From: Verrucomicrobiota bacterium
Lineage (GTDB): Bacteria > Verrucomicrobiota > Verrucomicrobiia > Chthoniobacterales > Terrimicrobiaceae
DNA length: 33,436 nucleotides
Direction: 5' to 3'
Assembly (NCBI GenBank): GCA_026398275.1
Contig: JAPLTF010000039.1
Span: 1 to 33,436, forward strand
Made by a program: the position numbers and the translations under genes. Shown here one piece after another: positions 28,232-33,436 of the stretch (positions are counted from its first letter, which is position 1; the number at the start of each line of letters is the position of its first letter). The notes beneath the pieces are model-generated. The model had not been told where the DNA came from. It saw only the letters and a program-made list of their open reading frames with translations, and made no database searches.

Positions 28232-28302
28232 GCGGGTGTAGTTCAATGGTAGAACGGCAGCTTCCCAAGCTGCATACGAGGGTTCGATTCCCTTCACCCG
28301 CT
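28232..28302 (+). tRNA. tRNA-Gly (anticodon CCC)
   Basis: Full cloverleaf of 71 nt. Acceptor GCGGGTG pairs with CACCCGC (28295-28301), with discriminator T at 28302. The D loop is GTTCAATGGTAGAAC. Anticodon stem GCAGC/GCTGC encloses loop TTCCCAA, giving CCC, which reads GGG. The T arm is GAGGGTTCGATTCCCTT. The 3' CCA is not encoded (CCC follows). It begins 8 nt past the pseudopilin stop, so the two could share a transcript. Confidence 0.95.
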
Positions 28303-28324
28303 CCCTCTGATAAAGAACAACTTA

Positions 28325-30558: not shown

Positions 30559-31752
30559 TTATCGAACGGGCGCGATGAATCCGGCTTGGGAGAGCAGGTT
30601 TTCCTGCCGCGCGGCTGAGGCGGCGTTGACGGAAGGCGGGACTTCGAACCATCTTTCGGCGCGGCTCTCCCGGCCTTCGGCGATGGCTCGGACGAGGCGA
30701 GCAGCCTTTTCCACGGAGTAGATGCGGCCAGTCCCCTCACCCGCCTCGCGGATGTCGCGGGCATCCATGGTGGTAACACCCTGCGAAACGGCGAAGGCTC
30801 CGCAGACGGCCTGAAGGTAGCCGGCGCAATCCTGTAAACGGGTACGCGGACGGGGAGATTCCCGGGTCATGACGCGGAGGAGGCCGCGATAACTTTGGTA
30901 GAGAAGTTCCGCGGGGTTAAAGCTTTCGAGGCTGCGCTGGTCGAAAACGATTTCGCCCTTCGTGCCCTCAATGCGGACGATCCAGGGATGGTGTTCCTCG
31001 CTGCAATGACAGACGGCGAGCTCGAAGGCAGGGCCTTGTTGCAGGCGGCCCTCAAGGTAGGCGAAGTCGTAGGCTTCGATAGGACGGGCTCGCAGGAATC
31101 GTCCCGTAATCGTGTCCGGCAAAGCAAAGGCAGTCTCGTCTGCCCCGCCAAAGAACATGATGAGATGGACGAGATGGGCGAGACCGTTGCTCGCGGGGCC
31201 GTCGAAGACGGCATTGGCCCCAAGAGCGAGGCGGCCGGCCCAGCCGCTTCTCTGATAGTAGCTATCGGCGCGCGGGGTGGCGGCGGAGGCGCGGATGGCG
31301 CGGATTTCTCCAATCTCACCAGCGAGCAGGCGGCGCTTGACGTCCTGAATGAGATGGGACTCGAGGAACTGGAAGCCGACGGCGACGCGCTCGCTGGCGG
31401 GATTTTTCAGCAGGCCCTCGAGCTGGGTATAGAGCGGCACGGGCGGCTTCTCCAGATAGACAAAGGCGCGCGGATGCCGGAGCACGGCCTCGACCATGTC
31501 GAAGTGCAGGAAGGGCGGCGTGGCGATGCTAATAAGATCGCACTCCTCCTCGGCCAGCAGTTTTTGCAAACTCTCGTAGAGGCGAAGGCCGGGCTGGTAT
31601 TTCCAATTTGCGGAGGGAGCGATGGCGGCGATGTTTGGATCGGCGACCGCCACGGTGCGCAGGGCTTGCTCGTCCTGCAGCCTTTCCAAAATGGACATGT
31701 GGTTGCGGGCAAAACCGCCCGCGCCGATCAACGCGGCGTCGAAAGAATTCAT
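30559..31752 (-). CDS. Gfo/Idh/MocA-family oxidoreductase, 397 aa
   Basis: Rossmann opening AALIGAGGFARNH (residues 6-18), TPP-type loop after DLISIA (72-81) and the EKP motif at 101-103 place it in the NAD(P)-dependent sugar dehydrogenase family. The middle (GWAGRLALGANAVFDGPASN, then GLAHLVHLIMFFGG) corresponds to the active-site closing segment. It has GPASNGLAHLVH where many members have GGxxxDxGxHxID, so the catalytic chemistry may be altered. It is only distantly like the gene at 2146-3309. It stands alone, with decayed gene fragments on its upstream side, suggesting the rest of a sugar-use locus was lost. Confidence 0.87.
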   Translation of the reverse strand: MNSFDAALIGAGGFARNHMSILERLQDEQALRTVAVADPNIAAIAPSANWKYQPGLRLYESLQKLLAEEECDLISIATPPFLHFDMVEAVLRHPRAFVYLEKPPVPLYTQLEGLLKNPASERVAVGFQFLESHLIQDVKRRLLAGEIGEIRAIRASAATPRADSYYQRSGWAGRLALGANAVFDGPASNGLAHLVHLIMFFGGADETAFALPDTITGRFLRARPIEAYDFAYLEGRLQQGPAFELAVCHCSEEHHPWIVRIEGTKGEIVFDQRSLESFNPAELLYQSYRGLLRVMTRESPRPRTRLQDCAGYLQAVCGAFAVSQGVTTMDARDIREAGEGTGRIYSVEKAARLVRAIAEGRESRAERWFEVPPSVNAASAARQENLLSQAGFIAPVR

Positions 31753-31924: not shown

Positions 31925-32066
31925 TATCAGTCACACGCATCGGCCACGAAGCGGCCCTGCTGGTGAAGGACTCCGCAGCGGCAATCTTTTTGCCGTAAAT
32001 ATGGATCGAGGAGGCGGCCTCCTTGGTGTCGTCGGTGTCGCGGCGGGAAAGAAAGCGATATCGGCC
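31925..32066 (-). pseudogene. Internal fragment of a glycoside-hydrolase-like gene
   Basis: The minus strand is open through RYRFLSRRDTDDTKEAASSI and then HIYGKKIAAAESFTSRAASW. The pattern ending in IYGKKIAAAESFTS resembles a conserved stretch of large GH106/rhamnosidase-like or GH2-like enzymes (recalled motif, not searched). There is no start, and the similarity stops abruptly at both ends, so this is an internal piece only. It abuts a fragment on the opposite strand near 32066. Confidence 0.45.
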
Positions 32067-32067
32067 A

Positions 32068-32202
32068 TTTGATCCCGAAGGCGGCCCCGGCTACATTCGA
32101 TCCACCCTGCAAGCGCTGGCCAGCATGGCTCTGCCAGAGACGCAGTTGCGCGGCATCCTGTCGGAGAATTTCCGGCGCATCACGGCCGCGCCGCGACCTT
32201 AG
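32068..32202 (+). pseudogene. C-terminal fragment of an amidohydrolase-like gene
   Basis: The frame reads FDPEGGPGYIRSTLQALASM, then ALPETQLRGILSENFRRIT, with TAG at 200-202 (32200-32202). A final helix of the form LPxxQLRxILxxNFRRI is typical of the C-terminus of TIM-barrel metal-dependent hydrolases (amidohydrolase/phosphotriesterase type). No N-terminal part or metal-binding residues are present. It starts where the minus-strand fragment ends, marking a head-to-head junction. Confidence 0.5.
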
Positions 32203-32400
32203 AACCTGTGAAATCATTAGGAAAAGCCGCGCTGTAATTCCGATGCCATCCGGGCCTCCAGAGATTAGATTGTCCCTCAAGCATCGATCTCAAATGTCGC
32301 TCGCTTCCTAAATTCTACCACAACCTCCATAATGAAAAATTGGCGTAATCACCCTTGGGCCGGCTCGCCCCTCGACCACTCCTCCGCATCGTCCGTCTGC

Positions 32401-32550
32401 GCCGGTGAATACAGCTCGATCCAGGGGGCGGTGGATAAAAATCCGGGGACCATGATTTACATCCCAGCGGGATTTCACGACCTCCGTTTTTCAGGCCACA
32501 TGTTTGACCCCGGGTGCCGGGGCATCAGTAATGTGCCGTTGCCGGAATGA
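32401..32550 (+). pseudogene. N-terminal fragment of a beta-helix (pectate-lyase-like) protein
   Basis: The frame contains GEYSSIQGAVDKNPGTMIYI and then PAGFHDL. SIQxAVDxxPGxxIYIPAG is the usual first turn of right-handed beta-helix polysaccharide lyases and GH28-like enzymes. After PAGFHDL the sequence diverges and stops within 23 residues. Only the first coil survives, so it is not functional. Confidence 0.5.
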
Positions 32551-32581
32551 ACGCCCCTCCCGGGATCCACCCGACTGAATT

Positions 32582-32875
32582 ATGACCGAAGCCGCCACCC
32601 GCAACCTCCTCACTCCCCTCGACGCCGGGGCGGTCGTGCTTTATCTCGCCGCCGTTCTCTGGATTGGCCTCCGTTACGCCCGTCAGGAGGGGGCGGATAG
32701 TTATTTCCTCGGGCATAAGAAAATTCCCGGCTGGGCGGTGGGCATCTCGATGTTCGCTTCGATCCTCTCCTCCTTCACCTTCATTGCTTTTCCCGGTTGG
32801 GCCTTCGACGGCAACTGGGCCATCCTGCTGAGGGAATTCCAGATGTTTGCGGTCCGGAACGAACGCGAGGGATAA
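32582..32875 (+). pseudogene. N-terminal stub of a sodium:solute symporter
   Basis: The first 83 residues are good sodium/solute symporter sequence: span 1 (AGAVVLYLAAVLWIGL), then YFLGHKKIPGWAVGISMFAS and ILSSFTFIAFPGWAFDGNW. After about 32831 the frame runs antisense into an unrelated gene (EFQMFAVRNEREG) and stops. Full-length symporters have 13-14 spans and about 500 residues, so more than 80 percent is missing. This and the opposing truncated gene meet near an EcoRI-like GAATTC (32834-32839). Confidence 0.75.
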
Positions 32876-33243
32876 TCGGTCGGATATTTTCCGCCGCGCA
32901 CCGCCCACACGTCGGAGGTGTCATTCGCGCGGGCGGCGGGGGTGATGGCCGAATTTACGAACAGCTTTTCCTGCATTGCAAGCCGCTCCAGGTTCGAGGC
33001 CGAGAGCAGCATGATATCCACGATATCCTGCGCAATGACGGCGCGCACCTGATCGAGATACTGGTCGAGTGTCTTCCAGCATCCCTCGGATTCATTGTAG
33101 CCGTGCCTACAGGACCCTGCCTGCGGACCCGGGGCTGTGATCCCGAATGCCATGTCGGCATCCTTCGCATCGGCAATGATGAAATCCTTCGCCCCCGACG
33201 GGTCGCGGAGGATGTTGGCAATTTTCTGGTCGACGCGTTTCAT
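32701..33243 (-). pseudogene. Truncated, unrecognised gene, possibly aldolase-like TIM barrel
   Basis: Starts MKRVDQKIANILRDPSGAKD at 33243 with GGAG nine bases upstream. FIIADAKDADMAFGITAPGP looks like the first strand of a class I aldolase-type TIM barrel; this is tentative. YLDQVRAVIAQDIVDIMLLS, then SASNLERLAMQEKLFVNSAI, would be a helix-strand repeat. Real coding content ends near 32836 (PSRSFRTANIWN); beyond that the frame is antisense to the symporter stub. The TGA of a short upstream frame (ending RSGIGTVEVEMH) overlaps this ATG as TGATG, suggesting the last codons of a lost upstream gene. I see nothing further in 33310-33436. Confidence 0.55.
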
Positions 33244-33436
33244 CAGTGCATCTCCACTTCGACCGTTCCGATCCCGGAGCGCAAATAGTGAAAGTGGACG
33301 TTGATATGGTTGCGCTTTTGTCAACAGGCAAAATGGTTTTGCGGATTGTTTTTTCATAACATCCCTGGCGGCCGGAAGGAAAAGCAAGTGGGAGGCGGAG
33401 GAGCGGGCGGGGTGATTCTCCCGGCGGCTTGTATGC

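Follow-up and report, generated by a model that had tools for sequence, protein, structure and literature searches.

How did pieces of several genes, set in mixed orientation, come to lie side by side within 1.5 kb of the right-hand end of contig C38, and do they still encode anything? We address this question for the window, by which we mean the whole stretch of DNA analyzed (33,436 nucleotides, positions 1-33436 of the contig). A preliminary description had read the patchwork as a graveyard of fragments from five unrelated carbohydrate genes, left by a collapsed polysaccharide-use locus or collected at a recombination hotspot. Three of the five named pieces, derived from GH106, symporter, and aldolase-like genes, are borne out by our analysis, whereas the amidohydrolase and beta-helix labels given to the other two are not. 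Three further parts were absent from that inventory: a repeat end at 32198-32232, the C-terminus of a nagB-like gene at 33246-33302, and a dispersed repeat from ~33296 (Table 1). The patchwork appears to be what recently broken genes left behind, and it encodes no working system. We put at somewhat better than even the chance that the stretch is a young relic, in which a few illegitimate joins at short homologies left scraps of broken carbohydrate-use genes.

Table 1. Features of the patchwork and of its left border in the window
Feature	Position	Strand	Basis
tRNA-Gly(CCC), left of the patchwork	28232-28304		
Gfo/Idh/MocA-type oxidoreductase, 397 aa, apparently intact	30559..31752	-	Pfam PF01408 E 9.3e-16, PF22725 E 2e-6
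GH106 alpha-L-rhamnosidase-like gene, internal fragment	31944..32066 (best supported 31959-32033)	-	PF17132; DNA and protein matches
Open frame, described earlier as amidohydrolase C-terminus (putative)	32067..32197	+	No Pfam, PDB, or relative match
MITE-like repeat, single terminal end (CTTA + about 31 bp)	32198..32232	+	Own-genome BLAST, pattern matches, arm alignment
72-codon open frame, described earlier as first coil of a beta-helix lyase	32333..32550	+	Marginal matches
Sodium:solute symporter-like gene, N-terminal 83 codons, cut off	32582..32830	+	PF00474; protein matches
Abrupt strand-changing junction, few filler bases	32831..32839	.	GAATTC at 32834
Aldolase-like gene, first 134 codons, cut off	32840..33243	-	DNA identity, dN/dS
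nagB-like (glucosamine-6-phosphate deaminase-like) gene, last ~20 codons	33243..33302	-	DNA match, neighborhood
Start of second dispersed repeat, running to contig end	~33296..33436	.	Partial matches in relatives

Setting of the patchwork on the contig

The genome that carries the window is a draft of 4,657,333 bases in 117 contigs, with a completeness given as 98.68%. To the left of the patchwork, the same contig holds rpoB, rpoC, ribosomal protein genes, a pilin-like gene, and a HipA/HTH pair; the oxidoreductase gene forms the left border, beyond which the patchwork starts. A stretch homologous to the pilin/tRNA-Gly(CCC) part of the window is found at a contig end, or at most ~400 bases from one, in three same-genus genomes (G001 C138, G002 C259, and G003 C140), hinting at an adjoining variable or repetitive spot. 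We considered a tRNA-borne island as well and rejected it: the window contains no second instance of the final 16-24 nt of the tRNA-Gly, and hence no duplicated tRNA 3' end.

Four pieces align to parts of longer homologs

The GH106, symporter, aldolase-like, and nagB-like pieces all align to parts of longer, intact homologs, as gene remnants do. The internal piece on the minus strand that had been called GH-like belongs to GH106, with a match to Pfam PF17132 at E 2.9e-7 over profile positions 426-459 of 743, and its matches lie inside long frames (731-1367 aa for the other frames among those listed). Protein matches at E <= 0.1 occur in eight of 58 genomes, the own genome included, and the DNA is 76% identical over 31963-32025 in two of the 58 (up to six candidate places per genome). 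Two relatives encoded in the own genome are 48 and 58% identical to the piece over 26-29 residues.

The reading of the next named piece as a symporter N-terminus on the plus strand is likewise confirmed. The piece matches PF00474 at E 0.0012, under the gathering score, and 52 of the 58 genomes (counting the own one) yield protein matches to it, the best of them at E 1.3e-11 when the window itself is excluded. The other frames listed are 453-903 aa in length, barring one of 199 aa, and identity to the nearest other copies that the own genome encodes is 31-36%.

For the aldolase-like N-terminus on the minus strand, the evidence is DNA identity: 84% to two same-genus genomes (G001 and G002), 81% to a third, and 81% also to a gene of 347 aa at C32 of the own genome. 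The piece is thus upheld, although its name is weak, because the matches of the full 347-aa paralog are weak and cover only the later part of the protein. The paralog is without a Pfam match at E <= 10, its best NCBIfam match (E 1.3e-5) is far under the cut-off, LsrF heads its PDB matches (E 0.073), and the NCBIfam and PDB matches fall C-terminal to the part retained in the window. The aldolase-like protein encoded at L009 5179-6222 (minus strand), 347 aa in length, is conserved: Verrucomicrobia-type and planctomycete genomes encode relatives of it, as do a few others. A scan of named genomes with the own-genome aldolase protein, from which the window's own genome was left out, returned matches mostly in Verrucomicrobia-type MAGs.

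Directly upstream of the aldolase piece lies the nagB-like piece, whose stop overlaps the aldolase start (TGATG). The DNA at 33246-33302 is 87-89% identical to nagB-like C-termini in G007, G002, G020, and G021; the name derives from an NCBIfam match of one homolog at E 0.002, under the cut-off. The full gene has ~311-313 codons in G007, G020, and G021 and in the second copy of G007. The copy in G002 (L059 1287-1557) keeps only codons 1-15 and 244-313, with ~230 internal codons missing, so that the aldolase operon is broken elsewhere too. nagB-like and aldolase genes adjoin at L131 (about 30 bp apart) and at L146 and L149 (about 130-140 bp), and one gene lies between them in G002. Since the two genes are neighbors in relatives, we regard the two window pieces as one operon fragment.

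Two open frames of putative identity

Neither Pfam nor the PDB nor the 57 other genomes searched at E <= 0.1 yielded a match for the frame at 32067..32197, and we do not retain its description as an amidohydrolase C-terminus. The beta-helix label of the frame at 32333..32550 fares no better: Pfam and the PDB returned nothing, and relatives match at E 0.018-0.095 in three of the 57 other genomes. We read one of these marginal matches as a likely first coil in a 989-aa frame that is lyase-like. At 54.2%, the third-position GC of the window frame is lower than that of the symporter, aldolase, and GH106 pieces.

Junctions and the second dispersed repeat

Two abrupt junctions with a change of strand had been proposed, and the one at 32831-32839 stands: symporter similarity ends at 32830, and aldolase similarity starts at 32840 on the opposite strand. 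By contrast, no sharp break is seen near 32066. GH106 similarity to one relative, though weak, reaches about 32081, past 32066, and the identity of the partner frame is unsupported; for these reasons, we do not treat the break as established.

From ~33296 onward, the window has partial matches of 80-95% identity in G002 C289, G002 C100, and G041 C19, each in a different context. The repeat begins GGACGTTGATATGG in L057 (1501-1615), L060 (1501-1570), L054 (1501-1537), and the window (33296-33415), and it is common to two relatives of different families. At the 33302 junction, the nagB-like piece and this dispersed repeat both hold GGACGTT, a microhomology of 7 bp.

A MITE-like repeat family with one end in the patchwork

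The repeat end in the window comprises 34-35 bp, its interior and partner end being absent. A pattern search of 97 genomes, with up to three mismatches allowed, gave 26+26 = 52 matches in the own genome and none in the 96 others; the reversed control gave none among the matches listed. We aligned 36 places (35 fetched and the window), of which 13 are two-ended, nine are cut by contig ends, 12, the window among them, are one-ended, and two are irregular. Copies with two ends span 73-364 bp and carry the family arms, as at L029 1447-1794. Multiple short copies, inverted terminal repeats, and a common interior mark the family as MITE-like. Its end repeat is about 31 bp long, CTNA-type flanks are present at many copies, and many copies lie at contig ends.

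The one-ended copies are those at L008, L013, L019, L023, L030, L031, L032, L035, L036, L037, L043, and window 32198. In nine of the 12, the match breaks off within the first 46 arm positions, close to the end repeat's inner edge. At L030, L037, and window 32198, the outer-end bases of the repeat, as judged by eye, give the stop codon of the incoming reading frame. Another of the one-ended copies, on C58, is located at a frame of 28 codons, a putative DUF423-type start.

No facing repeat ends 1-2 kb apart were seen among the places listed (best 40 candidates per search), although such a pair could be concealed by contig ends or runs of N, and no inverted partner end was seen between 32232 and 33436. 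Because the GH106 fragment lies outside the repeat end and the partner end is absent, this family seems not to be the maker of the patchwork. The presence of a repeat end inside the patchwork, together with the 7-bp microhomology at 33302, gives the earlier suggestion of a recombination hotspot indirect support.

Age and source of the pieces

Against nine homologs, the aldolase piece has a dN/dS of 0.023-0.087, and the homologs among themselves give 0.015-0.169, with three pairs saturated. Its 134 codons are free of stops, and neither relaxed selection nor a frameshift is evident. This test covers the aldolase piece, the others being without a close enough homolog. The lack of excess amino-acid changes since truncation points to either a young event or an artifact, and the open frames together with the low dN/dS argue for a recent truncation.

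Third-position GC is 70.8-77.1% in the symporter, aldolase, and GH106 pieces and 74.1% in the neighboring oxidoreductase gene; these pieces are thus not set apart from their neighbor, which speaks for the relic reading. The genome has no match to Ku, which was found in six of the 25 genomes searched, making classical NHEJ unlikely.

Among the best 40 of 75 candidate places, the own genome showed no near-identical source copy for any gene piece, and the only DNA-level relative was the 81% aldolase paralog. With similarity to the symporter and GH106 relatives confined to the protein level, the notion that the fragments are partial duplications within the genome is not sustained. A DNA search of 213 genomes of the order (up to two candidate places each) found matches at E <= 1e-5 in 21, own included, and almost every match was to either the nagB-like or the aldolase piece. 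Across the 58 genomes (up to six places each) and these 213 (up to two each), the only two pieces found close together were nagB-like and aldolase, in G002. At 68 aldolase loci from named genomes, a symporter match occurred once (L143) and a GH106 match never. GH106, symporter, and aldolase genes are so rarely together that the pieces need not derive from one locus. The idea of a collapsed locus has support for the nagB-like/aldolase pair, which are neighbors elsewhere, but a single resident sugar locus as the source of all the pieces is hardly supported.

Discussion

In the reading that we favor, the sources would include a nagB-like/aldolase operon, a symporter gene, a GH106 rhamnosidase gene, and possibly further genes. 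Illegitimate joins at short homologies would have left scraps of these genes, at least one join setting pieces in opposite orientation, and the MITE-like repeat end and the start of the second repeat would be part of the debris. We infer that a few events within a short time made the patchwork. Several observations count against this relic reading. No genome with GH106, symporter, and aldolase genes together was found at the 68 aldolase loci, the identity of two among the five named pieces is putative, with a lower third-position GC in the beta-helix-labeled frame, and the region is the end of a draft contig. Uniformly clean frames would also be odd in a heap of separate deletions accumulated over time.

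The main rival, which we consider unlikely but weighty, is that pieces of different molecules were joined at a draft contig end as an assembly or library artifact. The location in the last 1.5 kb of a contig in a 117-contig draft, the N runs inside repeat copies, and the clean state of the confirmed frames all fit such an origin, as does the GAATTC that lies inside the 32831-32839 junction (the window has 11 such sites). A repeat end of 34-35 bp could, moreover, mislead an assembler. The 7 bp that the 33302 junction has in common with its two parents, however, are too short for an assembler join, and the genome, given as 98.68% complete, showed no near-identical source copy (best 40 of 75 places). 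The absence of any other match across 32831-32839 or 33302 within the assembly at E <= 1e-3 (best 40 of 75 places) also counts on this side.

Two other origins appear improbable to us, each to about the same degree. Short pieces of environmental DNA may have been captured at a break by end joining, which would suit short, unrelated pieces with clean frames and mixed orientation, best-matching relatives that differ from piece to piece, genes that seldom adjoin in relatives, and the lack of a near-identical source in the own genome (best 40 of 75 candidate places). The nagB-like/aldolase piece, however, can also be explained by a resident operon, the missing Ku match weighs against end joining of the classical kind, and the repeat end was found in the own genome alone, one of 97. 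Alternatively, the patchwork might have formed in one burst, in a single repair event that proceeded without Ku by microhomology stitching. Several short pieces of sugar-use genes, either lost or foreign and 60-470 bp in length, would then have been combined with a transposon end in mixed orientation. 

A Pack-type element, with its transposon end at 32198 and captured gene fragments as its interior, is very improbable and was rejected: the repeat end does point into the patchwork and 11 other copies are likewise one-ended, but two inverted ends enclosing the fragments were not found within the window, the GH106 fragment lies outside the end on the left, no near-identical donor copy was found (best 40 of 75 places), and the two-ended copies are short and carry the family arms.

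If the junctions are real, the young relic that we favor offers a readable case, little decayed and sharp at its junctions, of the break-up of sugar-use genes in a genome of Verrucomicrobia type. The patchwork points to no new system, and it exposes a MITE-like family seen, among 97 genomes, in its own genome alone.

The patchwork resembles several known systems in part. Pack-type transposons are known from eukaryotes, and, as in these elements, gene fragments adjoin a transposon end; the patchwork differs in that neither a partner end up to 33436 nor donor copies (best 40 of 75 places) were found and in that fragments flank the end on either side. The 7-bp overlap at one junction and the mixed orientation recall illegitimate recombination at microhomologies, although only one junction of the patchwork can be read against both parents. 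MITEAba12 of Acinetobacter is a bacterial MITE (PMC6382973), and the repeat family represented in the window is like such elements in being short, in having inverted terminal repeats, and in its many copies. The window copy differs in retaining one end only, and an autonomous parent was not found among the places listed. With bacterial gene-remnant (pseudogene) clusters, the patchwork shares truncated genes, the lack of a full-length gene, and repeats inside; it departs from them in that its frames are clean, and thus young if real, and its pieces very short, at about 60-400 bp.
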